From Terriglobia bacterium (GTDB taxonomy: Bacteria > Acidobacteriota > Terriglobia > Bryobacterales > Bryobacteraceae): DNA of 64,000 nt. The stretch spans positions 1 to 64,000 of the forward strand of contig JAIQEX010000011.1 in NCBI GenBank assembly GCA_020073615.1. The letters are read 5' to 3'. Below the pieces are notes generated by a model that was not told where the DNA came from, ran no database searches, and saw only the letters and a list, made by a program, of their open reading frames with translations. Made by a program: the position numbers and the translations under genes. Below are positions 10,173 to 56,705 of the stretch, in pieces. Positions within the stretch are counted from its first letter, which is position 1; every line of letters begins with the position of its first letter.

Positions 10173-10254
10173 GAAACGATTGTGCGGCAAGGCGGCGCCG
10201 GCGGGTGGCAGATTGTGATGAGCAGCCCATTCGCGGGATGATCGGCAATGGGGA

Positions 10255-11511: not shown

Positions 11512-11845
11512 CTTACCTGAGTGGGGTTGGCCGGGGCGCCCTCCGGTCAGCCTGGCTCGCGCCGAAGGCGCGCTCCGCGTGCCGGCCACGGTTGAAAGCC
11601 TCGCCGTGTGGGGCGGGATGGAATCCTGCGGCGGGTTGGTAACCCGCCTTCTCGCGGCTTTCATCACCTTTGGTGGCCCTTCGGGCCATGGGGACAGGCC
11701 TGGAGGCCTACCAGGAGGCCTACTCCACGGAAAGCGGACATCTGAAATTGTGTGCCTGGCCATGGTGTTTGGGCGCCAGCATATCACGTCCGCTGAGCCA
11801 AAATTGTGCGCAACGTAAACGGTACAGAACGATTCCCGTCACGCA
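11512..11845. repeat. Intergenic region with several GC-rich palindromes
   Basis: This gap between divergent genes holds three short perfect hairpins: GGCGGGTT-GGT-AACCCGCC (11630-11648), TGGCCC-TTC-GGGCCA (11674-11688), and AGGCCTGGAGGCCT near 11696-11709. The last motif also occurs near 255-268, and a related GGCCT-rich form lies at 16396-16427, so these look like a dispersed intergenic repeat family. No gene of its own is supported, though the amidohydrolase start may extend into it. Confidence 0.45.
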
Positions 11846-11874
11846 TTGCACCCCCTGCTCTGAAAGCATATCCT
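11846..11874 (+). promoter_or_regulatory. Promoter of the hybrid kinase gene
   Basis: TTGCAC (11846-11851) and TATCCT (11869-11874) are separated by exactly 17 bases. The ATG at 11882 starts seven bases after the -10 box, so transcription would begin at or next to the start codon, giving a leaderless or nearly leaderless mRNA. No ribosome site is seen before the ATG. Confidence 0.55.
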
Positions 11875-11881
11875 GTAAGCG

Positions 11882-14800
11882 ATGAAGTCCAAGCCCAAAC
11901 GGACTGGAACCTCGCCCAAACGAAAAGCACCTGCGGAGCGAGAGCCCGCCACCGCGGCGTCCCCGCCGGCCGAAGAACACGGGCCGCCCGCCGATAATTT
12001 CACGGTAGTGGGCGTGGGCGCTTCGGCGGGTGGTCTCGAAGCGTTCACCGAGCTGTTGAAGCATCTGCCCGCCCAAACGGGGATGGCGTTTGTGCTGGTG
12101 CAGCACCTCGATCCCCACCACGAAAGCGCCCTCGCCGGGCTGCTCTCGGTCAAAACCCCGATGCCCGTGCTCCAGGTGCAGGGCGACACACCGGTGCAAC
12201 CCGACCGTATTTACGTGATTCCGCCCAATTCCCTCATGGTCATCGCGGATCGGGTGCTCAGCCTGAAACCGCGCGACGAGCGGGCCGATCATCACCTGCC
12301 CATCGATACTTTTTTCGCTTCGCTCGCCGAAGACCGGCGCACCAGCGCCATCGGTGTGGTTCTCTCGGGTACGGCGTCGGATGGCACGCTCGGCTTGAAA
12401 GCCATCAAGAACGAAGGCGGCATCACCTTCGCCCAGGACCACAGCGCCAAGTTCGACAGCATGCCGCGCAACGCCATCGCCGCGGGCGCGGTGGATTTCG
12501 TCCTTTCGCCCCGCTTGATCGCCAAAGAGCTGGCGGCCATTGCCCGCCACCCCTATCGGCGCCAGCCGCTGCCGGAACCGATGGGCAGCGCCACCGTCGT
12601 CCACAAGATGATGGTGCTGCTGCGCCACAACACGGGCGTCGATTTCACCCAATACAAAGAGCCCACCATCAGGCGCCGCCTCATGCGCCGCATGGTGCTG
12701 TGCAAAACCGAACGTCTCGAGGAGTACCTCGCCCTGCTGGAACGCGATTCCGCCGAGGTGCAGTCTTTATTCAACGACCTGCTGATCAACGTCACCGATT
12801 TCTTCCGCGATCCCCAGGTATTTGAAACGCTGAAGAACGTCGCTCTTCCCCTCATTCTGCGAGACCGCGGAAAGGACGATCCCATCCGCGTGTGGGTGCC
12901 GGGCTGTTCGTCGGGAGAAGAGGTGTATTCGCTCGCGATCGCGATCATCGAACATCTGGAAGACGCGAACCTCGATTACCCCATGCAGATGTTCGGGACC
13001 GATGTCAGCGAAGCCGCCATTGCCCGCGCCCGCGCCGGCGTCTACCCGGAAAGCGCGGTTTCCGCGATGGCCGCGGAACGCGTCCGCCGCTTCTTCGTGC
13101 GCACCGAATCCGGTTACCAGATCGGCCGCGGCATTCGGGAAACCTGCGTCTTCTCGCGGCACAATATCGCCAAGGATCCGCCCCTCTCGCACATGGATCT
13201 GATCAGTTGCCGGAACCTCCTCATCTATTTCGCCATGCCACTGCAGCGGCGCGTCATCGCCACTCTCGGTTATGCCTTGAAGCGCAGCGGGTGCCTGATG
13301 CTGGGCACGTCGGAAAGCCTGGGCGGCCTGAGCGACTACTTCGATACCCTCGATGCCGAGCACCGCATCTACTGCCGGAAACCCAATGTGGAGCCCGCCG
13401 GTTTCGAGATCACGGAGAGGCTCTCGGGCTACTCCCAGTTGCCGCGTTACCCCATGGCCGCGCCGCCGGAGCAAAGCCGGGATGCCGTGGCGCCGTTCCC
13501 CCCGCCGCCGGCGGCCGTTGCCCCACCGCCCGAAGCCATCGCCACCGACCCGGCACTCCGCATCGTCCAGATGGAACAGGAGCTGGTCTCCTCGCGCCAG
13601 TACCTGCAAACCATCATCGAGGAGCTCCGCTCCACCAACGAGGAAGCGCAATCCGCCAACGAAGAACTGCAAAGCACCAATGAAGAGCTGCAGACCGCCA
13701 AGGAAGAGCTGCAGTCCACCAACGAGGAGCTCAACACCATCAATGCCGAGATGGGCAGCCGCAACGCGGAGCTGGGCCAGCTCAACGACGATCTCACCAA
13801 CCTGCTCAGCTCCATGAACATGCCCGTCGTCATGTTGGGCAGCGACCTGTGCATCCGCCGCTTCACCCCCATGGCCGGCAAAGTCCTGCACGTGATTCCA
13901 GCCGATGTGGGCCGCCCCATCGGCGACCTCAAGCCGCGCGTCAATGTCGCCAGCCTGGAAGCGGCCCTCAAGGGCGTGCTGGAAACGCTCACCCCGTATG
14001 AGCAGGAGGTGCAGGACCAGGAAGGGCGATGGTACCTGATGCGCGTGCGTCCCTACCGGACCAGCGACAACCGCATCGATGGCGCCGTCCTGCAACTCCT
14101 CGACGTCAACGAGCTGAAGCGCAGCGTGGACGAGGTCCGGCAGGCGCGCGATTACGCCCAAGCCATCGTCGACACCGTGCGCGAACCGCTGGTGGTGCTG
14201 GATCAGGATCTTTCCATCCGCAACGCCAACCGCAGCTTCCACCAATGGTTCGACGTCTCCCCGGACGCCGCCGCCGGGCGCAACGTCTTCCGCATGGGCC
14301 GCGGCGAGCTGGATGTGCCCCGCGTCCACGAGCTTCTGGACCGCCTGCGCGACCGCGATGTCACGCTCTATGACCTGGAGGTCGAGCACAGCGCGCCGGA
14401 AGGCGGGAAGAAGTTCCTGCTGCTCAACGCCCGCCGTTTCGAGAGCCTCGACCGCAACTTGATCCTGCTGGCATTCGAAGACGTCACCGCGCAGAAACAA
14501 GCCGCCGAGGCCCGCTACCGCCGCCTGTTCGAGTCCGCCCGCGACGCCATTGTCATCGTCGATGCCGCCAGCGGCATGATCGACGATATCAATCCGGCGG
14601 TCGAAGAGATATTCGGATTCCCCCGCGATCGGATTGTCGGCCAGGTAGTCTGGGAAATCGAACCCCTGCGCGATGTTCCGCAGGTGCGGCCGGCGCTGGA
14701 GCGCATCCGCGATCAGGGCGTGGCCAATTTTCCGGAGCTGACGGTGCGGACCCGCGACGGGCGCGACGTGCTCACCGAAGTGGTGGCCAATGTCTACTCC

Positions 14801-16018
14801 GAGTCCGGCCGTACGGCCATTCAGTTCAATATTCGCGACCTTACCGAGCGCCGGAAATTCGAGCGCGAGCTGCAGCATACCCAGAGGCTGGAGAGCCTCG
14901 GCCTGCTGGCCGGCGGCATCGCGCACGACTTCAACAACCTGCTCACCGGCATCATGGGCAACGCCAGCCTGGCTTATGCCGATACCCCCCCCGACCAGCG
15001 CACCCGCACGCAACTGCGCGAGATCGTCAATGCCGCGGAGCGCGCCGCGCACCTGACCCGCCAGATGCTGGCCTATGCCGGAAAAGGGCAGTTCGTGATT
15101 CAGCACATCGACGTGGGCGAGCTGATTCGGGAAATCTCCACGCTCATCAAGACGTCCATCCCCAAGACGGTCGAGCTCAGCTTCGATATCGCCTCCGATC
15201 TGCCCGCCATCGAAGCGGACCCGGGCCAGATCCAGCAGCTCATCATGAACCTGGTGATCAACGGCGCCGAAGCCATCGGCGAGGACGAGCCCGGCAAGGT
15301 GGAGATCCAGGCCGGGGTGCGCAAACTCTCGGAGAAGGACGCTCGAGAGAGTTACGCCGCCGACCAGCTCACTGCCGGCGTCTACGTCTGGATCGAAGTC
15401 AAAGATAGCGGCTGCGGCATGGATGACGCCATCCGGGCGCGCATCTTCGATCCCTTCTACACCACCAAGTTCACCGGCCGCGGCCTGGGCCTCGCCGCCG
15501 TGCTGGGCATCGTCAAAGGCCATCGGGGCGCCATTCGCGTTTATAGCGCCGTGGGCGCGGGCAGTTCCTTCCAGGTCCTGATTCCCGCCTCCGCGCGCCC
15601 CGCCACCGCCGCGAATTCCCGGAAAGCGCGCCGCCTGGAGGGCGCCGGCGCAACCGTGCTGGTGATCGACGACGAGGATATCGTGCGCAACGTCGCCAAG
15701 ACGGTGCTCGAGCGCGCTGGATTCCGCGTTCTGACGGCCGACAACGGGCAGACCGGGTTGGAGCTGTTTCAACAGCACCACAGCCTGATCTCGCTGGTGA
15801 TTCTCGATCTGCTCATGCCCGTCCTGGGCGGCGAGGAAACCCTGGATCAGTTGCAGGCCATCGACTCCGCGGTTCCCGTGCTTCTGTCGAGCGGCCTCGA
15901 CCAAACCGAAGCCCGACGCCGATTCGGACAGAAGAGAGTGGCCGGATTCATCCAGAAACCCTACGACGTTTCACGCCTGCTGGACTCGATCGGCGACGCG
16001 CTTTCGCTCGGACAGTGA
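11882..16018 (+). CDS. CheB-CheR-PAS hybrid histidine kinase with C-terminal receiver
   Basis: 1378 residues in one polypeptide. In order: CheB methylesterase (about 40-215; Ser in GASAGG, His in VQHLDPHHES, Asp in LSGTASDGT); CheR methyltransferase (about 236-500; NVTDFFRDP, VPGCSSGEE, ISCRNLLIYF); a heptad-rich coiled coil of repeated STNEELQ units (about 563-643); at least three PAS-like domains (about 645-990); HisKA with phospho-acceptor in AHDFNNLL (near 1015); HATPase (about 1110-1240); and a receiver with the acceptor Asp in VILDLLMP near residue 1308. No chemoreceptor, CheA or CheW gene is nearby, so it probably serves a non-flagellar pathway. It has a leaderless-type promoter. Both CheB and CheR catalytic motifs look complete. 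Confidence 0.95.
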   Translation: MKSKPKRTGTSPKRKAPAEREPATAASPPAEEHGPPADNFTVVGVGASAGGLEAFTELLKHLPAQTGMAFVLVQHLDPHHESALAGLLSVKTPMPVLQVQGDTPVQPDRIYVIPPNSLMVIADRVLSLKPRDERADHHLPIDTFFASLAEDRRTSAIGVVLSGTASDGTLGLKAIKNEGGITFAQDHSAKFDSMPRNAIAAGAVDFVLSPRLIAKELAAIARHPYRRQPLPEPMGSATVVHKMMVLLRHNTGVDFTQYKEPTIRRRLMRRMVLCKTERLEEYLALLERDSAEVQSLFNDLLINVTDFFRDPQVFETLKNVALPLILRDRGKDDPIRVWVPGCSSGEEVYSLAIAIIEHLEDANLDYPMQMFGTDVSEAAIARARAGVYPESAVSAMAAERVRRFFVRTESGYQIGRGIRETCVFSRHNIAKDPPLSHMDLISCRNLLIYFAMPLQRRVIATLGYALKRSGCLMLGTSESLGGLSDYFDTLDAEHRIYCRKPNVEPAGFEITERLSGYSQLPRYPMAAPPEQSRDAVAPFPPPPAAVAPPPEAIATDPALRIVQMEQELVSSRQYLQTIIEELRSTNEEAQSANEELQSTNEELQTAKEELQSTNEELNTINAEMGSRNAELGQLNDDLTNLLSSMNMPVVMLGSDLCIRRFTPMAGKVLHVIPADVGRPIGDLKPRVNVASLEAALKGVLETLTPYEQEVQDQEGRWYLMRVRPYRTSDNRIDGAVLQLLDVNELKRSVDEVRQARDYAQAIVDTVREPLVVLDQDLSIRNANRSFHQWFDVSPDAAAGRNVFRMGRGELDVPRVHELLDRLRDRDVTLYDLEVEHSAPEGGKKFLLLNARRFESLDRNLILLAFEDVTAQKQAAEARYRRLFESARDAIVIVDAASGMIDDINPAVEEIFGFPRDRIVGQVVWEIEPLRDVPQVRPALERIRDQGVANFPELTVRTRDGRDVLTEVVANVYSESGRTAIQFNIRDLTERRKFERELQHTQRLESLGLLAGGIAHDFNNLLTGIMGNASLAYADTPPDQRTRTQLREIVNAAERAAHLTRQMLAYAGKGQFVIQHIDVGELIREISTLIKTSIPKTVELSFDIASDLPAIEADPGQIQQLIMNLVINGAEAIGEDEPGKVEIQAGVRKLSEKDARESYAADQLTAGVYVWIEVKDSGCGMDDAIRARIFDPFYTTKFTGRGLGLAAVLGIVKGHRGAIRVYSAVGAGSSFQVLIPASARPATAANSRKARRLEGAGATVLVIDDEDIVRNVAKTVLERAGFRVLTADNGQTGLELFQQHHSLISLVILDLLMPVLGGEETLDQLQAIDSAVPVLLSSGLDQTEARRRFGQKRVAGFIQKPYDVSRLLDSIGDALSLGQ

Positions 16019-16074
16019 GATAAGATAGGTTGACCCGCCCGGCGGAGCCAAAACTATTTTCGAGGTAGACAAGA

Positions 16075-16383
16075 ATGGCGAGAAAGCCCCCCAAGAAAGC
16101 AGCGAAGAAGGCTGTGAAGAAGGCCGTGAAGAAGGCCGCCCCGAAGAAGGCAGCCAAGAAAGCCGCGCCCAAAAAGGCGGCTCCCAAGAAGGTAGCTCCC
16201 AAGAAGGTAGCGAAGAAGGCCGCTCCCAAGAAAGCGGCAGCGAAAAAGCAGGCCCCCAAGAAGGCTGCGCCCAAAAAAGTTGTCGCGAAGACGGTCGCCG
16301 CACCGCCTCCGCCAGCGCCGCCCCCGGTGGCACCGCCGCCCGCCCCCGAACCGGAACCCGTCGTCACGCCCGACGTCGTCTAG
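16075..16383 (+). CDS. Lysine/alanine-rich histone-H1-like protein
   Basis: 102 residues. Residues 1 to about 70 are almost entirely repeats of KKAA and PKK type, very basic and like the C-terminal tail of histone H1 and of bacterial H1-like proteins (HctB or AlgP type). The last 30 residues are proline-rich and acidic at the end. It probably binds DNA without sequence specificity and compacts it. It starts 56 bases after the hybrid kinase with an ATG preceded by GAGG at 16061-16064. Low complexity makes homology hard to judge, but the clean frame and ribosome site support a real gene. Confidence 0.75.
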   Translation: MARKPPKKAAKKAVKKAVKKAAPKKAAKKAAPKKAAPKKVAPKKVAKKAAPKKAAAKKQAPKKAAPKKVVAKTVAAPPPPAPPPVAPPPAPEPEPVVTPDVV

Positions 16384-45671: not shown

Positions 45672-46622
45672 TTGCGCCCCGTTCTGAATTCGCTGCGAGT
45701 CAGTCCGCTTTGCTTCCGGCTTGAGACTCTCGGTCCATTCCGCGTTCCCGAATATAAGGGCGCGTTGTTTCGGGGCGGATTCGGACAGTACTTTCGGGAG
45801 ATGGTCTGTGTAACCGGAGCACCGGTGTGCACAAATTGCCCGCACTTAGCCACGTGCCCGTATTCGACGGTTTTCGAGACTCCGGTAATTCCCGACCAGT
45901 TCACAGTGTTGCGGAAGTATCCGAACGCGCCGCATCCGTTCGTACTGGTGCCGCCGTTGGATCAGCGGACCGCGCTGCCGCCGGGAACGCCCCTGGAGTT
46001 GGGAATAACATTGATCGGCCGGGGAATCGAGTACTTACCGCACTTCATCCAGGTGTTTGAGGGAATGGGACGGGACGGGCGGTATGGAGGGCGATTCCGG
46101 CTGCGCAGTGTAGTCTCGGCGGTGGAATCGGAGCGACTGGTTTATGACGGGATGACCAGCCGGTTCGCGGCGGAGCCTGTGTTGTGGCAGCCGGCAGAGA
46201 CCTCGCAACCGGTCGGCCGTATGTCGCTGGAGTTCCTGACGCCCCTACGGATACGAACAGAAGGCCGGTACAACCTCCGGCCCGACTTCGTGGCAATCAC
46301 GCAGGCATTGCTGCGGCGCATTCACCTGCTGATCGCGATCTATGGCGATAGAGAAGCGTCTGGCGAGATGGATTGGGTGCACGACCTGCTTCGCCGCGCA
46401 GATCGGGTGAAGACCCGGCGGGCGGAGTTCCGGCTTTATGCCTGGGACCGGATGAGCGGCCGGCAAGGGCGGCGGGTACAGATGGACGGCGTGATCGGGA
46501 CGCTGGAGGCGGAAGGCGAGTTGTCGGAGTTAGCGGCGTATTTTCGAGCGGGGGAGTGGGTGAGCGTGGGTTCGGGGACGAGTATGGGAATGGGAAGGTA
46601 TCGGATGGAGGTAGGCGGATGA
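45672..46622 (+). CDS. cas6: Cas6 pre-crRNA endoribonuclease
   Basis: 316 residues. It begins in Cas6 style (LRVSPLCFRLET, KGALFRGGFGQYFRE), carries a four-cysteine cluster CVTGAPVCTNCPHLATC near residues 46-62, and ends with the glycine-rich SVGSGTSMGMGRYRM of repeat-associated RAMP proteins (PF10040 group). It would cut each repeat transcript to leave an 8-base ATTGAAAC 5' tag on the crRNA. The start is a TTG at 45672 with GAGG nine bases upstream; there is no usable ATG. Its stop overlaps the CARF gene by four bases (ATGA). First gene of the locus. Confidence 0.9.
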   Translation: MRPVLNSLRVSPLCFRLETLGPFRVPEYKGALFRGGFGQYFREMVCVTGAPVCTNCPHLATCPYSTVFETPVIPDQFTVLRKYPNAPHPFVLVPPLDQRTALPPGTPLELGITLIGRGIEYLPHFIQVFEGMGRDGRYGGRFRLRSVVSAVESERLVYDGMTSRFAAEPVLWQPAETSQPVGRMSLEFLTPLRIRTEGRYNLRPDFVAITQALLRRIHLLIAIYGDREASGEMDWVHDLLRRADRVKTRRAEFRLYAWDRMSGRQGRRVQMDGVIGTLEAEGELSELAAYFRAGEWVSVGSGTSMGMGRYRMEVGG

Positions 46623-47323
46623 AGAACTTCCTTTTCGTGACACTGGGAACCTCCGCGCTGGACGCGCCCAGGCGAATTCCCGTAGTCAATCCTGCGCGCA
46701 GAGCAGAACTGGAACCGCTGGCGCAAAGGGTGAGAGAGTTCAAGAAAGACCAGAGCGCCGGCAAGGAGATTGAGGCCGAGGCACTTTTCAAGCCGCTCCT
46801 GGCGCTTCACCTCGGCTTCTGGACACAGTCGAGTATTCCGAAGGACACAGAGAGCCGGCGGCAGACTTCGGCGGAACTTCTGACCACCGTTGTCTTGCTG
46901 AACCAGTTGGCCCACGACACCGACGTTTTCGTTGACCGGGTTGTCTTATTGATACCGGAGACAACAGAAGGGATGCTATCGGGCCGCATCGTCACGAAGG
47001 TGATGGAGTCGCCGGAATACAGGGGTCACGGCCCCATTCCAGAGGTTCGCACGCGGGTAATACCGGGGATTGCGGAGAAAGAAAAAGTCCCGCTGTTGCC
47101 GGGTGCTTTGCTCTCCGCCGTGGATGAAAACCGGGAATCCGAAGCCGACCGGATCATTTTCAACGCCACGGCCGGGTATGGGGCCGTGCAGATCCTGATC
47201 GGAATGCTCGCGCTCCGGTACGGCTTCCGCATCTACTACCAGCATGACAGCATGCCAGAGCCGATTTTCGTCTCCCAGAACCTCGACATTGGTTGGTCCC
47301 CGCGAACATGGATAGTTTCCTGA
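46619..47323 (+). CDS. Stand-alone CARF-like protein of a type III CRISPR system
   Basis: 234 residues. The N-terminus MKNFLFVTLGTSALD and the later ADRIIFNATAGYGAVQILIGMLALRYGFRIYYQHD match the two ligand-loop regions of CARF (Rossmann-like) domains of the APE2256/Csm6 N-terminal type, with GTS and NATAG as the likely nucleotide-binding turns. No HEPN, nuclease or membrane domain is attached, so it could be a cyclic-oligoadenylate sensor subunit or a ring nuclease that removes the signal. It overlaps cas6 by four bases and the membrane-protein gene by 16. Confidence 0.8.
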   Translation: MKNFLFVTLGTSALDAPRRIPVVNPARRAELEPLAQRVREFKKDQSAGKEIEAEALFKPLLALHLGFWTQSSIPKDTESRRQTSAELLTTVVLLNQLAHDTDVFVDRVVLLIPETTEGMLSGRIVTKVMESPEYRGHGPIPEVRTRVIPGIAEKEKVPLLPGALLSAVDENRESEADRIIFNATAGYGAVQILIGMLALRYGFRIYYQHDSMPEPIFVSQNLDIGWSPRTWIVS

Positions 47324-48132
47324 ATTACGTTACTACGCATAATGCGCCGGCCTGGCGGGATGAGATCTTTGCTACGTTGCGACATCCCGACCCGCCGGGT
47401 GCCAAGAACGTGAGGGGCGAGTGGAGCCTGGAGCACGAAAGGGATTTGGAGCGAATCCGCCTTTGGATTCGAGAAGCTGTGAACCCTGCATCAGACCTCG
47501 CACAGGTTTACCGCAAGCTCCAACCCGGCCTGGATCTTGAGGAGGACATTCTGACGGGCCTGCCGGCTTTCGAGAGGACTCCGGGTCTCGGGCCCCTGGA
47601 AGCCCACTACTCTTTGCGCATGCTGTGGCGGGTGCTGCTGCGGCGTCACGCGATCCGTGAGGCAAAGCAGGCGGGCGCCCTTCTCGCGGCAGGGGAGGGC
47701 CGAGCATGGCGCTGCGCAAGGCGCTTGAGCTATTATTACCCACGGCTGCTCGTCGGCGTGCTACTCGGTTTCTTCACGCTTGGAGCAAGTAGCGGCGTCG
47801 CAAGTGCCATCGAGACGTTACGTTTCCATGCGTGGTGGCCAGTCCCCGTAGGGTCCATCGTACTGGTTGCTTTTCTGGCCGTTGCGGACGTGGAGCGCCG
47901 GGTCGGCCGCGTCCCCGGAAAGACGATTTTGGCCCGGGCGCTTCGGGTCTTGGCATTCGGGATCGTGTACGCGGCGTTGCTTGCGGGGATCGCGTACCGG
48001 GTGGCTGCGGCAGTCGGTCTTACGGCATGCCACTATGGCCCAGTGCCAGTGATGTGGGGCAGCGTAGCCCTGGTGCTGGGTTTTGTGTTTCAACTCTTCT
48101 GGCAGGAGCGGTCGATCGGAGAACCGTTATGA
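47308..48132 (+). CDS. Four-helix membrane protein in the CRISPR operon, candidate effector
   Basis: 274 residues. Residues 1 to about 140 are soluble, charged and mostly helical. Four hydrophobic segments follow at about 146-168, 177-193, 210-235 and 245-265, ending in FQLFWQERSIG. I do not recognise the family, and no CARF motif is visible within it. The ATG at 47308 is preferred over an in-frame TTG at 47293. It overlaps the CARF gene upstream and cas10 downstream (ATGA), so it is produced with the interference complex. By analogy with CARF-linked membrane effectors such as Cam1 and Csx23, it may disturb the membrane on activation; this is inference. Confidence 0.78.
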   Translation: MDSFLNYVTTHNAPAWRDEIFATLRHPDPPGAKNVRGEWSLEHERDLERIRLWIREAVNPASDLAQVYRKLQPGLDLEEDILTGLPAFERTPGLGPLEAHYSLRMLWRVLLRRHAIREAKQAGALLAAGEGRAWRCARRLSYYYPRLLVGVLLGFFTLGASSGVASAIETLRFHAWWPVPVGSIVLVAFLAVADVERRVGRVPGKTILARALRVLAFGIVYAALLAGIAYRVAAAVGLTACHYGPVPVMWGSVALVLGFVFQLFWQERSIGEPL

Positions 48133-49625
48133 ACGAGAGACTGTACGTGGCCGGTGAGTTCTACGGAATTCAAAAATATGTGCTCGGTATTACCGCTGCG
48201 GGAGGCGGTCAGGCCAAGCGACTGCGGGCGCGTTCTTTCGTTGTACAGGCCCTGGAGCAGATCGTAGTCGAGGAACTCCGCGCTCTCGGCTCGTCCGAAC
48301 TGATCATGGCGGGAGGCGGCCAGTTCGTGCTGGCGCTGGAAAACTCGCAGGCTGCGCAACCGCGCCTTCTCGAATTCCGGCGGGAGTTGCAGGAGCGGCT
48401 TTTCAAGGAATTGGGCGGCGAGCTCAGCTTCAATCTCGGCTGGTCGGATTCGATTGAACAAGCGCGGCACGCGCGGGAACTGGAAAGACGGCGCCCCTGG
48501 GCCGAATACATGACCGGCCCCAACGGCTGGGCGCACGAACGAATGCGTCTGGGCAACATCTACCCCCCTTGCGATATCTGCGGCAAACGCCGGGAGACGG
48601 TAACGTGGTCCTCAGATGGGCCGCCCGAGAGCGTATGCGAACGGTGCAACTCAGACAGGAGTATCGGGACGCAGATTCCGCACGTGCAAGGCGTGGAACT
48701 GGCGGAGCACGACTCCGATATCCAGCTTCTCGGACGCGGCCTGCGGTTCCGCCATGCAAGCTCAGGGGCGGCCGTGGGGGACGGCGGCCGCGCGCTTCAC
48801 AGGTATGTACCGGTGCAAGACGACCGAAAGACCCTCCTCACCTTCGAGGAGATCGCAGCGAAGGCGGAAGGCGACGAACTGCTGGGCATCCTGAAAGCGG
48901 ATGTGGACAGTTTTGGCCGGCTTATTGCGAAGCACACAAAGGAGGGAACTCTGGACGCGCTGGAGAGGGTCAGCAAGGATCTCGACGGCTTTTTCAGCAT
49001 CACGTTGCAGCGGGCGATCAGTGAGAACGCGGAATGGAAATACATCTATACCGTATTCTCCGGCGGCGACGACCTCCTGCTGGTGGGCCCCTGGAGCGTT
49101 ATGTTGGACTTCGCCGCTACGGTAGAAAGCATGTTCTCGTCCGGGCCAGGCCGGCAATACGGCCTGAGTCTGAGCGCCGCGGTATCGTTCATGCCGCCCA
49201 GGATTCCAATCCGCCACGGTGTGCACCGGGCCGAAACAGACCTCAAGCAGGCTAAAGGGGGAAGCAAGAACCACTGCGCGACTCTGGGCGGAGTTTGGGA
49301 TTGGGAGGACTTTCGGCGCATCCTGGGCAAAGGACGGCAATTGGTCAAGTGGTGGACTTGCGGCGTGAAGAAGGCCCTGCTGCGCCGTTTGTACCACATC
49401 GCAGCCTCGGCCGAGCCCGGCGCCCAACTGTGGGCGTGGGAGTTGGGCCGGAATTTTCCACCCCGGAACTCGCCACATGACGAGCTGCGCCTGTTCCGCG
49501 AGTGGGGTGACCGGGTACTCGCCAATTGGGAGGCGGGAACCATGAACGAGACAAGGGCGGCGCTGCTGTACGCGCTGACCGCAACCAGAATGATAAGGAG
49601 CAAGGATGAGCGACGCGGACGATGA
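48129..49625 (+). CDS. cas10: Cas10 (Csm1), HD-less, with intact GGDD cyclase motif
   Basis: 498 residues; typical Csm1 is about 750-850. It starts directly in the first palm domain (VAGEFYGIQKYVLG, LRARSFVV), so the N-terminal HD nuclease is absent. A zinc finger has Cys148, Cys151, Cys170 and Cys173. The second palm has LGILKADVDSFGRLI and the catalytic GGDD at residues 312-315, followed by a helical C-terminal domain. It should make cyclic oligoadenylate on target-RNA binding but lack HD-type DNase activity. The start overlaps the membrane-protein stop by four bases; the frame is open to 47832, but that region is the membrane-protein gene in another frame. Confidence 0.95.
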   Translation: MNERLYVAGEFYGIQKYVLGITAAGGGQAKRLRARSFVVQALEQIVVEELRALGSSELIMAGGGQFVLALENSQAAQPRLLEFRRELQERLFKELGGELSFNLGWSDSIEQARHARELERRRPWAEYMTGPNGWAHERMRLGNIYPPCDICGKRRETVTWSSDGPPESVCERCNSDRSIGTQIPHVQGVELAEHDSDIQLLGRGLRFRHASSGAAVGDGGRALHRYVPVQDDRKTLLTFEEIAAKAEGDELLGILKADVDSFGRLIAKHTKEGTLDALERVSKDLDGFFSITLQRAISENAEWKYIYTVFSGGDDLLLVGPWSVMLDFAATVESMFSSGPGRQYGLSLSAAVSFMPPRIPIRHGVHRAETDLKQAKGGSKNHCATLGGVWDWEDFRRILGKGRQLVKWWTCGVKKALLRRLYHIAASAEPGAQLWAWELGRNFPPRNSPHDELRLFREWGDRVLANWEAGTMNETRAALLYALTATRMIRSKDERRGR

Positions 49626-50013
49626 TGGATCGTTTTTCGAACAAAGCGGCGGTTTGAAGGTCCGATTTGTGGACCGCGAGCACATGGAGCCACAGGCTGA
49701 GGCCATGGCCAGGGACGGCCTGAACATGAACCAGTTGAACCGCTTTTTTCGACACTGCCGCCGGATCGAATTCCGCTTGAGACGGAAAGAAACCGGATGG
49801 GACCAGGAAAAATCGGAGGTGGACCTCCTCTCCGCCCATGCCGCCGATGCCTATGGGAAAGGGGAGAAGATACCCGCGTCGTTCAAGCGATTCATCGACG
49901 ACAACGTGAAGCGAACTCGTACGGAAGGCGATTTCGCAAAAGGGTTCATGAAGCACTTCGAGGCTCTCATGGGATTCGCCAGCCTCTACGCGAAGAAGGG
50001 GCAGAGAGGATAA
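49606..50013 (+). CDS. csm2: Csm2 small subunit
   Basis: 135 residues, basic and helical, with the RRIEFRLRRK and FMKHFEALMGFASLYAKK pattern of Csm2, the inner filament subunit of type III-A complexes that contacts crRNA and target RNA. It overlaps the end of cas10 by 20 bases and precedes csm3, as in other csm operons. Confidence 0.88.
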   Translation: MSDADDDGSFFEQSGGLKVRFVDREHMEPQAEAMARDGLNMNQLNRFFRHCRRIEFRLRRKETGWDQEKSEVDLLSAHAADAYGKGEKIPASFKRFIDDNVKRTRTEGDFAKGFMKHFEALMGFASLYAKKGQRG

Positions 50014-50017
50014 CACG

Positions 50018-50686
50018 ATGAAACGGATGTCGCGCCACATCATTGAAGGAACGATCAACTGCGTCAGCGGGCTGCACGTGGGAGGAGCCGACGATCAGCT
50101 TGAGATCGGCGGACTCGATCTGCCCGTGATCAAACACCCGGATACGAAGGAGCCGTATATCCCCGGGTCCTCGCTCAAAGGCCGCATGCGATCCGAGCTG
50201 GAGCATAAGCTCGGAAAATACAGCGGCAAATCGGCGAACGAACCGTGCGGGTGTTGCCTCGCGGACTGTCCCATCTGCCGCGTTTTCGGGCCGCACAAGT
50301 TCGATCCCCGGCACCCTCCAGGGGCCGGCCACCCCGGCCCCACTCGTTTGCTGGTACGAGACGCCCAAGCGATAGGCGCTCTGGCCCTGGAGCTCAAAAC
50401 CGAGAGCGGCAACGACCGCGCGACCGGGCAGGCCGGCAACCCGCGCCAATTGGAGCGCGTAGCTGCCGGCGCCAAATTCCACTTGCGCCTGATGCTCCAG
50501 GTATTCGATACCGACGACAAGTTCAAATACGCCGGCAAGACCGGAAAGGACGCTCTCCTGGCTGTCGTTTGCGAGGCACTCGGTTACGTCCAAAGCAGTG
50601 GAATCGGCGGCGGTATCAGCCGCGGCTCGGGCGAGGTCCGGATTGACGGCATGACCCTCGACGACAAGCCATGGCCATGCAACTGA
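50018..50686 (+). CDS. csm3: Csm3 (Cas7-type) backbone subunit and RNase
   Basis: 222 residues. A RAMP fold opens IIEGTINCVSGLHVGG, then GGLDLPVIK with Asp34 in the position of the catalytic Asp that cuts target RNA every six bases, and PYIPGSSLKGRMRSELE, the crRNA-binding stretch. A cysteine cluster CGCCLADCPIC (about residues 76-86) and the C-terminal GIGGGISRGSGEVRI complete the signature. AGAGAGGA lies upstream of the ATG at 50018. Its end overlaps csm4. Confidence 0.95.
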   Translation: MKRMSRHIIEGTINCVSGLHVGGADDQLEIGGLDLPVIKHPDTKEPYIPGSSLKGRMRSELEHKLGKYSGKSANEPCGCCLADCPICRVFGPHKFDPRHPPGAGHPGPTRLLVRDAQAIGALALELKTESGNDRATGQAGNPRQLERVAAGAKFHLRLMLQVFDTDDKFKYAGKTGKDALLAVVCEALGYVQSSGIGGGISRGSGEVRIDGMTLDDKPWPCN

Positions 50687-51630
50687 TCCGCTTCCGGCTT
50701 AAGCCCAGGACGCCGTGGATGACGCCCTGGCAAGCCGACACCATCGGCGGCATGCTGGCGGCGCTTTACGCGCGCGTCAAGCCGAAGGAAGCGGAGGAGG
50801 AGTTGATCCGGCCCTGGCAGGAGGGACAGCCCAACCTGGTGGTATCGGATGCGTTTCCGGGCGACCTGCTTCCCGCGCCGGCCAATCTGGCCCTTTGGCC
50901 AGAGATGCAGGAGCGGGACCCGAAAGAGGTCCGGGCCGCGGCGTGGCTTACCCCGGAAGAGTTTCGCTCGATGCAACGCGGAACGCTGCCGCCATTGTTC
51001 AAAGGGGAGCGCCAAGACCCTTACCGCCAGGCGGTCCGCCTGCGGAACTCCATCGACCGCGGCGTGAATTCGACCGGCGAATCAGGCGAGCTGTACGAGG
51101 CTGCCGGGCAATTGCTCGCCACTCCTGGCGGGACCCTCACGATTTTTGCGCGCGTTGCCGATAACCGCGTGGCGTGGGCCGCCGGTCTTTTCGCCCTTCT
51201 GGCCGAATACGGCTTTGGCGCGGACGCACCCGTGGGCGCGGGCGAGGTGGAGATGGCCGGGGAGCCAGAGGTCGTCGGCGATTTGGACCCGGCCGACACT
51301 ACCGGCGGTTGGATGTCCCTCTCCAGCTTCCAGCCCGCGCAACGCGACCCGACCGAAGGCTACTGGCGCTCGTTTGTCAAGTACGGGAAACTGGGGCCGG
51401 ACCTGGCGGTCACGTCGGTGTTCAAGCGTCCCCAGTGGATGCTCCGTGCGGGCGCGTGCTTCCGCGATTCCGGTCCGAGGCGGGACTGGTACGGCCGCTG
51501 GATCGGCGCCGAAGACCTGCTGCCGGACCGGGCGCGCCGCGAACTGAAGGCGGCCGGCATTCAGCCGGGGCAGCCGGCATACGCGTTGGCCGTGCCGCTG
51601 CGCTGGGTTGAGGTTGGCGTGGCACTGTGA
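50671..51630 (+). CDS. csm4: Csm4 (Cas5-type) subunit
   Basis: 319 residues (317 if ATG 50677 is used). It has TPWQADTIGGMLAALY, LVVSDAFPGDLLPAP, YGFGADAPVGAGEVE and, near the end, DPTEGYWRSFVKYGKLG with FKRPQWMLRAGACFR, all typical of Csm4, which caps the crRNA 5' tag next to Cas10. It overlaps csm3 by 16 bases and the reverse transcriptase by four. The csm5 gene that normally follows is missing. Confidence 0.92.
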   Translation: MAMQLIRFRLKPRTPWMTPWQADTIGGMLAALYARVKPKEAEEELIRPWQEGQPNLVVSDAFPGDLLPAPANLALWPEMQERDPKEVRAAAWLTPEEFRSMQRGTLPPLFKGERQDPYRQAVRLRNSIDRGVNSTGESGELYEAAGQLLATPGGTLTIFARVADNRVAWAAGLFALLAEYGFGADAPVGAGEVEMAGEPEVVGDLDPADTTGGWMSLSSFQPAQRDPTEGYWRSFVKYGKLGPDLAVTSVFKRPQWMLRAGACFRDSGPRRDWYGRWIGAEDLLPDRARRELKAAGIQPGQPAYALAVPLRWVEVGVAL

Positions 51631-52580
51631 CACCGTACATGAGCGCAACCGCCCTGCGCCGTGCCTTCCTGCGCGTCAACGAGAACCACGGGTGCGCGGG
51701 CGCCGACGACGTTTCGCTGGCGGGGTTTGAGAGCGGGCTCGACGGGCAGGTCGACCTGCTGCGGCGCATGGTGGAGGATGGGTCCTACTTCGCCTGGCCG
51801 CTGCGGAAGATCGAGGTGGAAAAAGCGCCGGGGTCGGCGGAGCGGCGGACTTTGCTGGTGCCGGCGGTGCGCGACCGCGTGTTGCAGACGGCGGCCGCGG
51901 CTTACATGGAGCCGTTTCTCGAAGCCGAGTTCGACGAGTGCAGCTTTGCCTACCGGCGGGGACGAAGCGTGCGGATGGCGGTCGAGCGGGTCTATCAGCT
52001 CTACCAGCAAGGGTATTGCTGGCTGCTCGACGCCGATATTCAAAGCTTCTTCGGGACCGTTGATAGGGAAATCGCGATCGGGCGGCTGGCGACGCTGGTG
52101 CCCGACGAAACCGTGGTGCGGCTGGCGCGGCTGTGGCTGGACTCGGCGGTGTGGGATGGGCTCCACCTGACCCGGCCGACTTTAGGCCTTCCGGAAGGGG
52201 CCGTGATTTCGCCCATGCTGGCCAATCTGTGCCTGGATGTGCTGGACGACCGGCTGCTGGCGGAGGGGATCAAGATGGTGCGGTATGCCGACGATTTCGT
52301 GGTGCTGACTAAAGGACGCAAGGCCGCGGAACAAGCGCAGGCGCTCACCGAGGAGGTGCTGGCCGGCTTGCGCCTGCGGCTCAACCAGGGGAAGACGCGG
52401 ATCGTCCGTTTTTCGGAAGGGTTCAAGTTTTTGGGGATCATCTTCCTGAAGGATCTCCTGCTGCAGCCGTGGAAGCCGGGACGCAAGCGTCTGAAAGTGC
52501 TTTCCGTGGCGCCTCCCTTGCCGGAAAGCTTCTTCCCGCAGAGCGAACGGCGGCCGTTGCGCCGGTATCGGGTGGTGTGA
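51627..52580 (+). CDS. CRISPR-associated stand-alone reverse transcriptase
   Basis: 317 residues with the RT motifs in order: LLVPAVRDRVLQTA and CSFAYRRGRS (RT2), LLDADIQSFFGTVD (RT3, first catalytic Asp), LGLPEGAVISPMLANLCLD (RT4), RYADDFVVL (RT5, YADD at 220-223), LNQGKTRIV (RT6) and FKFLGIIF (RT7). It is of group-II-intron lineage but has no room for full maturase or endonuclease domains. It is not fused to cas1, which starts three bases after its stop. The start is a GTG overlapping the csm4 stop (GTGA); an ATG at 51639 is possible. Likely role: cDNA synthesis during spacer acquisition from RNA. Confidence 0.93.
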   Translation: MTPYMSATALRRAFLRVNENHGCAGADDVSLAGFESGLDGQVDLLRRMVEDGSYFAWPLRKIEVEKAPGSAERRTLLVPAVRDRVLQTAAAAYMEPFLEAEFDECSFAYRRGRSVRMAVERVYQLYQQGYCWLLDADIQSFFGTVDREIAIGRLATLVPDETVVRLARLWLDSAVWDGLHLTRPTLGLPEGAVISPMLANLCLDVLDDRLLAEGIKMVRYADDFVVLTKGRKAAEQAQALTEEVLAGLRLRLNQGKTRIVRFSEGFKFLGIIFLKDLLLQPWKPGRKRLKVLSVAPPLPESFFPQSERRPLRRYRVV

Positions 52581-52583
52581 GCC

Positions 52584-53582
52584 ATGGCCGTGGTTTATGT
52601 GAAGGAACAGGGCGCCATCATCCGCAAGCACGGCGGCCGCATCCTGGTGGAGAAAGACGAGGCGCTCCTGCTGGAGATCCCCCTGCGGCAGACCGACAGC
52701 GTCGCCGTATTCGGGAATGTCCAGGTGACCACCCAGGCGCTGTCGGAGCTGCTCGACCGGGGCATTCCGCTGGCGCTGTACACCCGTTACGGGCGCTTGA
52801 AAGGGCACCTGGTTCCGGACCTGTCGAAGAACGTCCCGCTGCGCGTGGCGCAGTACCGGGCGGCATTGGACGCAGAGGCATCGCTGGAATTCGCCAAGGC
52901 CGTGGTTGGCGCGAAACTGCGGAACGCGGGCAGGCTGCTGGCGGACTACCGGAGCAATTATCCCTCGGACTTGCTGGCCTCGGCCGGTGAGGCGCTGCGG
53001 AACGCGGTGGAGCGCGCGGCGGCAGCGGCGAACCACGGCGAGCTGCTGGGCTACGAAGGTTCGGCGGCGGCCGCCTATTTTGGCGCCTTCGCGGCCATGA
53101 ACCGCAGCCCACTGCCGTTCGACGGGCGGCGCAAGCACCCGGCAACCGACCCCATCAACGCGCTCCTGAGCCTGGGATACACGCTGGTGATGAACGAGAT
53201 TCGCGCGGCGGCGGAGGGCGCGGGCATGGAGCCGCACCTGGGCTTCCTGCACAAGGTGGATTATGGGCGTCCGTCGCTGGCCCTGGATTTGCTGGAGCCG
53301 TTCCGTTCCCCGGTGGTGGACCGTCTGACTCTGCGCCTGGTGAACGAGAGAATCCTCACCGCCGAGGACTTCGCCACGCGGCAAGCGGGCGGCACGCCGG
53401 GCAGCGTAATCCTGTTGCCCGACTCCTTTCGGAAATACCTGGAGGCCTACGAGGCGGCCGTAAGCGAACCTCGCGAGCGCGCTCCCACGGGGTTGCGGGA
53501 CGCCTGGCGCGCCGACGTGGAGCGACTGGCCGCTGCGATTCGGGATGGCGGCGGGTTCGCGCCCTACTGCGAGGGGGAGTGA
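52584..53582 (+). CDS. cas1: Cas1 integrase
   Basis: 332 residues. An N-terminal beta domain (VKEQGAIIRKHGGRILVEKD) and a helical catalytic domain with Glu158 in YEGSAAAAYF, His223 in GFLHKVDYGRPSLALDLLEP and Glu238 in the same stretch, the metal-binding triad. It inserts new spacers at the leader end of the array with Cas2. Its stop overlaps the cas2 start by one base (TGATG). Confidence 0.97.
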   Translation: MAVVYVKEQGAIIRKHGGRILVEKDEALLLEIPLRQTDSVAVFGNVQVTTQALSELLDRGIPLALYTRYGRLKGHLVPDLSKNVPLRVAQYRAALDAEASLEFAKAVVGAKLRNAGRLLADYRSNYPSDLLASAGEALRNAVERAAAAANHGELLGYEGSAAAAYFGAFAAMNRSPLPFDGRRKHPATDPINALLSLGYTLVMNEIRAAAEGAGMEPHLGFLHKVDYGRPSLALDLLEPFRSPVVDRLTLRLVNERILTAEDFATRQAGGTPGSVILLPDSFRKYLEAYEAAVSEPRERAPTGLRDAWRADVERLAAAIRDGGGFAPYCEGE

Positions 53583-53857
53583 TGCTGTACCTGGTTTCCT
53601 ACGACATAACGGACGATACGCGGCGGCGGCACGTGATGGAGGCGCTGAAAGATTTTGGGCGCCGCGTGCAGTACAGCGTCTTCGAGTGTAACCTGGACGA
53701 GGGCGCGCTGACGGAGTTGCTGGGGCGGCTGGAATTCGCGATTGATGGACAGACGGATTCGTGCCGGCTATACCGGTTGTGCGAGCGATGCGCTCCGGAG
53801 GTGCGGATTCTGGGTAAAGGAGACCGCTACCAGGAGCCGGATTTTGTGATTATTTGA
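53582..53857 (+). CDS. cas2: Cas2
   Basis: 91 residues of ferredoxin-like fold: MLYLVSYDITDDTRRRHVMEAL, RVQYSVFECNL and CRLYRLC. The N-terminal Asp in YDI is present. I use the ATG at 53582, which has GAGGGGGAG just upstream; a GTG at 53579 is also in frame. It forms the Cas1-Cas2 integration complex and ends the cas operon. Confidence 0.95.
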   Translation: MLYLVSYDITDDTRRRHVMEALKDFGRRVQYSVFECNLDEGALTELLGRLEFAIDGQTDSCRLYRLCERCAPEVRILGKGDRYQEPDFVII

Positions 53858-54067
53858 GCGTAACCGGCTGATTTTAGAGGCTTTGGCGTGGATGAAAAAA
53901 AGGGGCGCGAGGAGGAGCAGGTTACGGAGCGGTTGATTCGACTGGAGTTTGCCCGGATCGTGGGGCGGAAACCGGTGCCCGACGATGGGTGGCCGCCGGA
54001 CAAAAACAGGGGGTTACGGTAACGGCTATGTGATCTACAATGTTGTCAAGGGCTTGGCGCGGCGGCT
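53858..54067 (+). promoter_or_regulatory. CRISPR leader
   Basis: This 210-base stretch lies between cas2 and the first repeat. Repeat orientation (ending ATTGAAAC) and the adaptation genes upstream mark it as the leader side. A TACAAT at 54036-54041 could be the -10 box of the array promoter, but no good -35 box is seen. It is less AT-rich than usual leaders and contains a short reading frame (53888-54022). Confidence 0.6.
53888..54022 (+). CDS. Possible small protein in the CRISPR leader
   Basis: A 44-codon frame starting at a GTG with AGAGG seven bases upstream. The product is highly charged (DEKKGREEEQVTERLIRLEF followed by ARIVGRKPVPDDGW). It lies 30 bases after cas2 and ends 45 bases before the first repeat. 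No family is recognised. It may be chance coding within the leader. Confidence 0.3.
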   Translation: MDEKKGREEEQVTERLIRLEFARIVGRKPVPDDGWPPDKNRGLR

Positions 54068-56705
54068 GCAGGAAGGGATTCGCTGACGAAGAAGCGATTG
54101 AAACTACGCGAACGCCAAAAGAGAAGTCCGGCGAATGCAAGCAGGAAGGGATTCGCTGACGAAGAAGCGATTGAAACATGATAAACCGGCAGATTCGTGG
54201 GTCCAAATAGCGGGGCAGGAAGGGATTCGCTGACGAAGAAGCGATTGAAACTCGTGGCCAGCGTATAATCTACCACCGGCGGGGTCGTTGCAGGAAGGGA
54301 TTCGCTGACGAAGAAGCGATTGAAACTGAACGAAATGAGTGCGTCTGATCGTCTTTATGATCTGCAGGAAGGGATTCGCTGACGAAGAAGCGATTGAAAC
54401 CTCGGTGGCCGCTTGCTGAACAGCGGTCCAGTCTGCAGCGCAGGAAGGGATTCGCTGACGAAGAAGCGATTGAAACCCGCAGGCGTCTTGAGCTTCCAGC
54501 CTGGATAGAATAAAGCAGGAAGGGATTCGCTGACGAAGAAGCGATTGAAACCTTTCTGTCGGGCGATCACCCAGTCAAAGTACTTTAGGGCAGGAAGGGA
54601 TTCGCTGACGAAGAAGCGATTGAAACTTCTTGTTGGCGGGGTTACCGCCTCCTTCGTCGCATGCAGGAAGGGATTCGCTGACGAAGAAGCGATTGAAACG
54701 TCCGAAATGGATTCCTGGTGCGAGTGTGTCTGCCTGTGCAGGAAGGGATTCGCTGACGAAGAAGCGATTGAAACTTCCCCGATGAAACTTATCCGCGCGA
54801 GGGTCGCGCTGCAGGAAGGGATTCGCTGACGAAGAAGCGATTGAAACTCTGACGAGCTACTTCTTCCGTTACCGGCTTATTCATTGCGGGCAGGAAGGGA
54901 TTCGCTGACGAAGAAGCGATTGAAACGACAGAGTGACGGTGCAGTTGAGCCCGTCCCCCTGAAAGCAGGAAGGGATTCGCTGACGAAGAAGCGATTGAAA
55001 CTCGATGCTTCGAGACCGGATATGGCGTGCTTCTGTGCAGGAAGGGATTCGCTGACGAAGAAGCGATTGAAACTGGGATGCGGACTGCTTGGCGAGATCC
55101 TCGAGGGACAGCAGGAAGGGATTCGCTGACGAAGAAGCGATTGAAACCGCAGCAGCTCGATTTCTTCGGTGAGTCGCCGCTTGGCAGGAAGGGATTCGCT
55201 GACGAAGAAGCGATTGAAACTCTCTATGGCTGTTTCGCAAGGAGCAAGCCCGCCGCGCGCAGGAAGGGATTCGCTGACGAAGAAGCGATTGAAACCATAT
55301 TGGTCCGACGGCCGCGCGATAAGAGCCCATTCTGCGCAGGAAGGGATTCGCTGACGAAGAAGCGATTGAAACAGGAAAACCCACGAAGCATCCACTCTGA
55401 TAGACAACGCAGGAAGGGATTCGCTGACGAAGAAGCGATTGAAACTTATAGGAACAGAAGAAGTACCCAATAATGTACTGTGCAGGAAGGGATTCGCTGA
55501 CGAAGAAGCGATTGAAACGAGTTGTTGATGTCCTCGTAGATCGCCACCTTGCAATGGGCAGGAAGGGATTCGCTGACGAAGAAGCGATTGAAACGCTACT
55601 TGTTCGACCATACGTTGCGTCTCCTTTTTGGGCGGGAAGGGATTCGCTGACGAAGAAGCGATTGAAACTCCGAAGCGAACTGCGGGATGCACCCGGAAAC
55701 TTCCGGCGGGAAGGGATTCGCTGACGAAGAAGCGATTGAAACGTGAAAGCTACGTGCGGGCCGGATGGCAGCGGCAGTGCGGGAAGGGATTCGCTGACGA
55801 AGAAGCGATTGAAACATGGTCTTCCCTTTCGAGTCTTGAGTTAGGATGCTTTCCGCGGGAAGGGATTCGCTGACGAAGAAGCGATTGAAACAGGTCTTGG
55901 CGCCCGAGATGAGCAATTCCGTTGCGGCGGGAAGGGATTCGCTGACGAAGAAGCGATTGAAACCCTGCTCGGCCAGCCGTTCGGGGCCACTCACATCGTC
56001 GCGGGAAGGGATTCGCTGACGAAGAAGCGATTGAAACGGAGATTGGTCGTTCCAAGCGAGACGTACAGGTCAAGCGGGAAGGGATTCGCTGACGAAGAAG
56101 CGATTGAAACTTGATAAGCGCTCCCGCGATCGTGTCGATCTCTGCGCGGGAAGGGATTCGCTGACGAAGAAGCGATTGAAACCTTACTCAACACACCGCA
56201 TAGCCCGAGTACCAGGCTGCGGGAAGGGATTCGCTGACGAAGAAGCGATTGAAACTCTGAGGTTGAACGGCAGGTTGAGTGGCGTCTCGTTGCCGCGGGA
56301 AGGGATTCGCTGACGAAGAAGCGATTGAAACTTCATCATAACAAAGGGCGTCGGGGGTTGGTCATTCGGGGCGGGAAGGGATTCGCTGACGAAGAAGCGA
56401 TTGAAACTCCAACTTCTGAGCATCATCCTGGATCAGGCTCAAGCGCGGGAAGGGATTCGCTGACGAAGAAGCGATTGAAACTCAAGTTGGATTACTCTCG
56501 GCCGAGGCCTTAGAGTGCGGGAAGGGATTCGCTGACGAAGAAGCGATTGAAACTGATACTGCCCGGCGGCGTCCGGGATCGGGCTTTGGATGAAGCGGGA
56601 AGGGATTCGCTGACGAAGAAGCGATTGAAACGCTGACAACCACCTCGGTCACGCATGCCCCAATCACCGCGGGAAGGGATTCGCTGACGAAGAAGCGATT
56701 GAAAC
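54068..56705 (+). CRISPR. CRISPR array, 36 repeats and 35 spacers
   Basis: The repeat is 37 bases, starting GCAGGAAGGG or GCGGGAAGGG and ending GCGATTGAAAC. I counted 36 copies, the first at 54068-54104 and the last at 56669-56705, with 35 spacers of 35-42 bases, mostly 36-38. Copies 1-21 have A at position 3 and copies 22-36 (from 55632) have G; no other repeat change was noticed. TCGCT and AGCGA inside the repeat can pair to form a small hairpin for Cas6, leaving the 8-base ATTGAAAC tag. The array is co-directional with the cas operon; the leader side is on the left. The last repeat is not degenerate. Confidence 0.99.

Follow-up and report, generated by a model that had tools for sequence, protein, structure and literature searches.

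The locus

The window analyzed here is a 64,000-nucleotide stretch of DNA from a Terriglobia bacterium of the Bryobacteraceae (assembly GCA_020073615.1, contig JAIQEX010000011.1, positions 1 to 64,000 of the forward strand). It carries a clustered regularly interspaced short palindromic repeats (CRISPR) operon in which a separate reverse transcriptase (RT) gene lies between csm4 and cas1-cas2; all features described for the window are on the forward strand. The RT gene (51627..52580) starts with GTG and encodes 317 amino acids. Its open reading frame (ORF) overlaps the end of csm4 (50671..51630; TIGR01903 6.3e-15, PADLOC Csm4 2.5e-51) by 4 bp, and three bases (52581..52583) separate its stop from cas1 (52584..53582; PF01867 4.6e-86), which in turn overlaps cas2 (53579..53857; PF09827 1.3e-22) by four bases. 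Downstream are a presumed leader, recognized by position and sequence (53858..54067, from cas2 to the first repeat), and a CRISPR array of 36 repeats and 35 spacers (54068..56705). A preliminary description of this DNA had placed a stand-alone RT between csm4 and cas1-cas2, with a four-base overlap, a stop three bases ahead of cas1, and a YADD motif at residues 220-223, and the coordinates bear this out. The interval it gave, 51627-53857, does contain the RT, but spans cas1 and cas2 as well, the RT itself ending at 52580.

In profile searches the RT matches RVT_1 (1.5e-31) and the PADLOC RT family (4.4e-77); it also matches group_II_RT_mat at 6.4e-73, but with 245.9 bits, below the curated cut-off of 300. 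Pfam detects the RT domain alone in this protein. Rfam includes group II intron models, and no Rfam family is matched at gathering score anywhere in the window; hence no group II intron RNA was found. The start codon is backed by three relatives (L045, L046, and L047, below), each of which has a Met codon at the corresponding place in the alignment. By ORF, family matches, trees, and an AlphaFold2 (AF2) model, the gene is almost certainly a stand-alone CRISPR-associated RT. Other RTs are present elsewhere in the same genome.

Relatives and the RT-cas1 junction

Relatives were found by two peptide patterns in genome contigs, which gave 58 loci encoding one; other published clades are therefore under-sampled. 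The near lineage consists of five sequences: that of the window, L045 (81% identity), L046 (79%), L047 (62%), and L059, which is 84% identical over 139 residues and broken off by a contig end. RTs this close (E ≤ 1e-55) occur in 19 of 257 genomes of the order, and the stand-alone lineage in five of those, spanning five genus codes and two families.

The RT stop codon (TGA, 52578-52580) is followed by GCC and then the cas1 ATG at 52584, giving a single frame through one TGA. Because the two genes share a frame, a split fusion, a sequencing error, and readthrough were examined by way of the relatives. In all four lineage members with a complete RT (window, L045, L046, and L047), the RT is separate and within 0.9 kb of cas1; the adjacency is kept in L045 (whose contig ends within cas1), L046, and L047. 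Their junctions vary: TGA+GCC+ATG in the window, TGA+CT+ATG in L045, an overlapping TGATG in L046, and a CRISPR array in L047. The RT-cas1 frame is lost in L045 and L046. All four RTs end in the tail FFPxxExRxLRxY, which is absent from the fused relatives compared. Since the relatives' junctions differ, the split is taken as real and conserved, and single-stop fission, sequencing error, and TGA readthrough can be ruled out for the lineage.

A fused RT-Cas1 gene is additionally present in three of the five lineage genomes (those of the window, L046, and L059). Not one of these genes is clearly intact, as though the fused module could be replaced by the unfused one. In the window's own genome, the fused gene (L041; contig C228, approximately 11536-16228, minus strand) is split inside the RT by an inserted element encoding a 749-amino-acid serine recombinase (Resolvase, Recombinase, and Zn ribbon); its own array, of at least nine repeats, adjoins. 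The fused RT in the L046 genome (L079; contig of A14_bin-2537, 9923-11300) is enlarged in frame by about 120-130 residues, inserted at approximately residue 66-74 in window numbering. Fused and unfused designs thus co-occur in single genomes, but in the five lineage genomes no case was seen with both plainly intact. The other two have one RT match each at E ≤ 1e-20.

Two unusual arrangements were noted in passing. In L036 (genome G044; taken as the same sequence as L047), three arrays of related repeats lie around cas1 and cas2 between 7500 and 11100, one of them separating RT from cas1. In L037 (G007, 10365-11456), the RT frame runs straight into Cas2, and the 2.5 kb downstream contain no cas1; this is either an RT-Cas2 fusion or the result of a deletion through cas1. 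L037 is flanked on both sides by arrays of one repeat type.

The RT protein

All RT motifs had been reported as present. This holds for the three aspartates D137, D222, and D223 (the last two within YADD, residues 220-223), presumably catalytic and invariant in a 30-row alignment, but motif B reads LPEG, with Glu190 in place of the Gln of PQG. This Gln, which presumably contacts the incoming nucleotide in the manner of Q151 in HIV-1 RT, is kept by each of the 35 fused relatives whose motif could be read. Within the lineage the residue is Glu in the window, Gln in L045 and L046, and Leu in L047; the 12 unfused rows have seven Gln, two Leu, one Glu, and two unreadable, and 32 RTs without cas1 have 22 Gln, three with another letter, and seven unreadable. 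It is a typical trait, and does not define CRISPR-associated RTs (CARTs).

Ratios of nonsynonymous to synonymous substitution rates (dN/dS) for the window RT against L045, L046, and L047 are 0.075, 0.168, and 0.145, and for cas1 0.132 (L045, 94 codons), 0.221, and 0.215; these are rough values, most dS being near or above 1, but they indicate purifying selection on the RT. The unfused and probably co-translated RT-Cas1-Cas2 adaptation module of the preliminary description is one that relatives have kept as such.

The AF2 model of the RT has a predicted local distance difference test score (pLDDT) of 92.9 and a predicted template modeling score (pTM) of 0.88. Its best match among solved folds is GsI-IIC RT (6ar1; Z 32.0, root-mean-square deviation 2.3 over 285 residues). 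In an alignment read by hand, with numbering anchored on FADD, the counterpart of K256 in the Thiomicrospira Cas6-RT-Cas1 is K574, a residue directed into the active site of Cas1; mutating K574 abolishes RT activity and lowers RNA ligation by more than 80% (PMC8102632). K256 is kept in all four complete lineage members and is absent from the alignment in L048, L049, and L062. These last three represent another unfused RT lineage, found in other groups; they have no motif-6 Lys-Thr pair in the alignment, and L048 and L049 share the tail AYLLKKKKGW.

RT and Cas1 trees

Phylogenetic placement had been proposed as a check. Among the 66 rows of an RT tree, the window lineage forms a clade with 100/100 support, entirely unfused and away from most RTs without cas1. 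It groups with CRISPR RTs, outside the sampled Chloroflexi RTs; its sister is unsettled (80/42), and deeper forks have moderate support (80/42, 83/76). In a Cas1 tree of 42 rows, the lineage (three rows) has as its sister group 13 Cas1 sequences from acidobacterial fusions (98/95).

A concatenated RT+Cas1 tree (43 rows, rooted on two Chloroflexi RTs) again gives the lineage 100/100. The unfused L048, L049, and L062 split off first, followed by a group of the window lineage and the 13 acidobacterial fusions (98/96); the remaining fusions, 20 in number, make up a second group (96/98). Some rows call for caution: L091, labeled unfused, probably represents a fused gene that has been broken, and there are long branches in L085, L097, and L083. 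Forcing all 33 fused rows into one clade costs 33 log units and is rejected (approximately unbiased test, p = 0.00017), while forcing the seven non-Chloroflexi unfused rows together is not (p = 0.278). The maximum likelihood probability that the ancestor of the window lineage and the acidobacterial fusions was fused is 0.14 with equal rates and 0.00 with free rates, the latter model estimating loss at zero. These ancestral states therefore favor two fusions and a retained stand-alone state. Most parsimoniously, the window lineage would be a pre-fusion branch and fusion would have arisen twice; we lean toward retention.

Spacers

The 36 repeats are 37 nt long, and the 35 spacers are 35-42 nt, none duplicated. 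The repeats come in two variants, 21 on the leader side with GCAGG and 15 distal ones with GCGGG, and therefore new units seem to have been copied at the leader end, a sign of growth. Provided that new units copy the first repeat, about 20 would have been added since the A/G change. Mean spacer length is 36-41 nt beside acidobacterial RT modules, and 31-34 nt in four type III loci without an RT.

Strand was called by a codon-usage classifier that is right for about 70% of fragments taken from the genes it was trained on and for 60-67% of unseen genes; because of this limited accuracy, the sense-like fractions are approximate. An earlier classifier, trained on the longest ORFs, was right for 56-59% and was discarded despite p = 0.0003. 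Of 111 arrays found, 84 were oriented by an ATTGA-type 3' end, some proteobacterial fused arrays by a similar motif; arrays of unclassed loci and duplicate spacers were excluded, and window spacers included three repeat bases. In the window lineage, 21 of 67 spacers are sense-like (p = 0.003), compared with 75 of 199 at acidobacterial fused loci (p = 0.0006) and 54 of 140 at proteobacterial ones (p = 0.009; with a host model 62 of 140, p = 0.2, not significant). For type I classes, named from repeat and Cas1 frame rather than by effector searches, the fractions are 84 of 169 at I-C-like loci (p = 1) and 155 of 346 at Cas4-Cas1 loci (p = 0.06; 153 of 346 with a host model, p = 0.036). Two arrays of unassigned class were kept separate (L229, 4 of 13 sense-like; L236, 21 of 66).

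In a search of the array DNA against 237 genomes of the family, the listed matches outside the array all hold repeat bases, and none was taken as a protospacer.

Proposed function and alternatives

As read from the DNA, a separate, conserved RT gene under selection lies beside cas1, cas2, and an array, in a lineage that stayed or became unfused. It probably serves RNA- or cDNA-assisted spacer acquisition (cDNA, complementary DNA) by an unfused RT-Cas1-Cas2 module. The RT would be translated jointly with csm4, cas1, and cas2 and would dock in trans, with no covalent link, on its own Cas1-Cas2 integrase; from pieces of foreign transcripts (and DNA) it would make cDNA, which Cas1-Cas2 would insert as ~37-bp spacers behind the leader; and the array could then guide a III-A-like Csm complex that lacks csm5 and has a GGDD Cas10, together with an effector pair of a CARF and a membrane protein. 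Docking need not be covalent, because in the Thiomicrospira Cas6-RT-Cas1 structure the RT reaches Cas1 via an RT helix, the linker being merely flexible (PMC8102632). In vivo RNA spacer acquisition has been reported for fused RT-Cas1 proteins (PMC9048733, PMC5541045), spacer orientation here is consistent with RNA targeting, and RNA-derived acquisition at the window locus is plausible. More tentatively, the window may represent an undescribed acidobacterial CRISPR-RT lineage that split off before the acidobacterial RT-Cas1 fusion, with at least two independent fusions overall and with RNA capture by an RT that can dissociate and has undergone drift in motif B; this wider proposal is possible rather than probable.

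Several observations weigh against acquisition from RNA by such a retained pre-fusion module. Type III loci without an RT show a strand bias similar to that of the window lineage (36 of 103 spacers sense-like, p = 0.003; three loci, with 71 of the 103 spacers from one of them). The CRISPR RNA of type III arrays thus tends to be complementary to coding sequence, which is what RNA targeting requires, whether or not an RT is present. Because RT-less arrays are equally biased, strand bias cannot separate RNA acquisition from selection, and its absence, offered in the preliminary description as a refuting observation, is not diagnostic; according to a review, type III systems with an active RT show no strand bias in acquisition except at rRNA genes (PMC9048733). 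The sole phage match is weak (31 of 42 nt, E = 0.02), between spacer 11 and the gene for a ClpP-like protease in Vibrio phage vB_VhaS_MAG7, with the spacer antisense to that gene; no protospacer was found in plasmids, and four of the 35 spacers, searched as exact 21-23-base cores, had no match in viral contigs. Glu190 here and Leu in L047 may alter RT activity, and RT dN/dS is higher for L047 against L045 (0.295) and L046 (0.252). K256 is part of the general RT motif 6, retained in many RTs without cas1, so that its conservation says little about docking on Cas1 in particular. Modeled as a single chain, with the RT read through into Cas1, the protein has a pTM of 0.53, with residues 309-318 below pLDDT 50: the prediction is of two well-folded domains in no defined RT-Cas1 arrangement. 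Finally, 6 of 14 linkers from acidobacterial fusions and 9 of 21 from other fusions contain the pattern [TSKV]x[MILV]xx[AE][FL]x[ERKQSAT][AV]; none of 12 unfused tails does (two of which, L091 and L099, come from broken genes), and shuffled linkers have it at means of 0.07 and 0.15, with maxima of 2 and 3. A pattern common to both fused groups suggests one fusion with later fissions, although it was spotted by eye in the very sequences later tested.

Such secondary fission, an ancestral fused RT-Cas1 having split here and separately in L048, L049, and L062, would likely leave function unchanged and alter only the history. Fissions of this kind have been proposed in the literature (PMC5513706), RT and cas1 are still in one frame in the window, and a homologous linker would mean a single fusion. 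This history nevertheless takes three changes on the RT+Cas1 tree, against two for two fusions; the ancestral probabilities of fusion are low under both rate models, the frame is not kept in L045 or L046, and the linker motif was found and tested in the same sequences. Secondary fission is accordingly a serious competitor, if a doubtful one. Whatever the history, the RT could conceivably be impaired or otherwise employed, the module taking its spacers chiefly from DNA. The motif B substitutions, at a position that is Gln in every fused relative read, would fit this, but the active-site Asp and other motifs are intact, window dN/dS is low (0.075-0.168), and L045 and L046 retain Gln, making an impaired RT unlikely.

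A passing retroelement or separate anti-phage RT landed in the operon is very improbable. The fold is of the group II intron RT type and the genome holds other RTs, but the window yields no Rfam family at gathering score, Pfam sees an RT domain only, the tree places the RT with CRISPR RTs and away from most of those without cas1, and cas1 is within 0.9 kb in all four members. Scarcely credible is an artefact, that is, a fused RT-Cas1 gene broken by a sequencing error or expressed through TGA readthrough: one frame, one stop, and one extra codon lie between RT and cas1 in the window, whereas the relatives differ in spacing and frame, one having a whole array in between, and the conserved tail closes the RT in all four.

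The lineage is informative on the number of origins of fusion, whether one (PMC5513706) or several (PMC6013744), and a conserved unfused lineage sister to a fused one, in the CRISPR system of a soil bacterium, makes the need for a covalent RT-Cas1 link directly testable. The strand comparison is also a warning: antisense bias in type III arrays tells nothing about an RT.

Effector complex and neighboring genes

Upstream of csm4 are cas6 (45672..46622; CRISPR_Cas6 1.1e-16, PADLOC Cas6 2.2e-81), a gene for a CARF7 or Csm6-like sensor protein (46619..47323, start set by ORF reading; PF09651 5.4e-11, PADLOC Csm6 3.6e-16) and its partner (47293..48132), cas10/csm1 (48129..49625; TIGR02578 8e-73, with the start and a retained GGDD from ORF reading), csm2 (49606..50013; TIGR01870 9e-8, PF03750 7.4e-9), and csm3 (50018..50686; TIGR02582 1.2e-44). 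The type III-A effector genes cas10/csm1, csm2, csm3, and csm4 are thus all present. No Csm5 was found among the 10 operon proteins scanned, its profile giving weak cross-matches to csm3 only, and the locus is therefore termed III-A-like. Cas10 matches TIGR02578 only from profile position 230 of 753 onward, so the HD part is apparently missing. PF22335, used as a Cas10 finder, has matches in 201 of the 237 genomes; as most were judged GGDEF-type by length and number, only the best-scoring loci were retrieved.

The 47293..48132 protein has no family in NCBIfam, Pfam, or PADLOC; its C-terminal half is hydrophobic, with the segments judged by eye. Both the CARF gene and this partner are found again in L045, L046, and the fused locus L052, and the pair (46619-48132) is perhaps a two-gene membrane effector of type III signaling. 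Effectors accompanying RT-cas1-cas2 differ, from csm5-less III-A-like in the window to III-D-like with Csx10 in L046; free combination of RT adaptation modules with type III effectors is already known (PMC5513706).

Comparison with known systems

Stand-alone CRISPR RTs are a published architecture (PMC5541045, PMC5513706, PMC10415136), accounting for 14 of the 110 records in Table 1 of PMC5541045. The published stand-alone clades (RT-CRISPR-9 of Chloroflexi, clade 13, some of clades 4, 5, and 7, and archaeal clade 1) likewise have a separate group II intron-like RT gene (PMC5541045, PMC6013744, PMC10415136). Three Chloroflexi RTs, taken as clade 9 by taxon and layout, were sampled here; they are also unfused, and the window lineage does not fall with them in the trees. 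The taxon list of that Table 1 does not mention Acidobacteria (clade 4 includes "no-rank phyla"), and a literature search on acidobacterial CRISPR RTs returned nothing on the topic, going by titles and the opening lines of abstracts. The separate RT layout is not itself new, and no new clade is claimed, published clades being compared by description only.

GsI-IIC RT (6ar1) shares the fold of the window RT, which stops about 100 residues sooner (317 vs. 417) and therefore has no thumb/X domain of GsI-IIC length. The Cas6-RT-Cas1 proteins of Thiomicrospira (PDB 7kft) and Marinomonas, for the latter of which RNA acquisition has been reported, belong to the same kind of type III RT-Cas1-Cas2 module, but combine in one protein what the window has as three genes. 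The window RT+Cas1 matches 7kft at 8e-134 by sequence profile; 7kft is not among the Foldseek and VIA matches listed.

Closest are the acidobacterial RT-Cas1 fusions (L050, L052, L056, L057, L064, L069, L071, and others), the sister clade in the Cas1 and concatenated trees, with 38-49% identity to the window in RT and 40-51% in Cas1. Most of their repeats end in ATTGA[AG]AC, like those of the window, but most have CCCC/GGGG stems, compared with TCGCT or similar against AGCGA in the window lineage. They differ also in having a linker of ~32-45 amino acids between RT and Cas1, and Gln in motif B.

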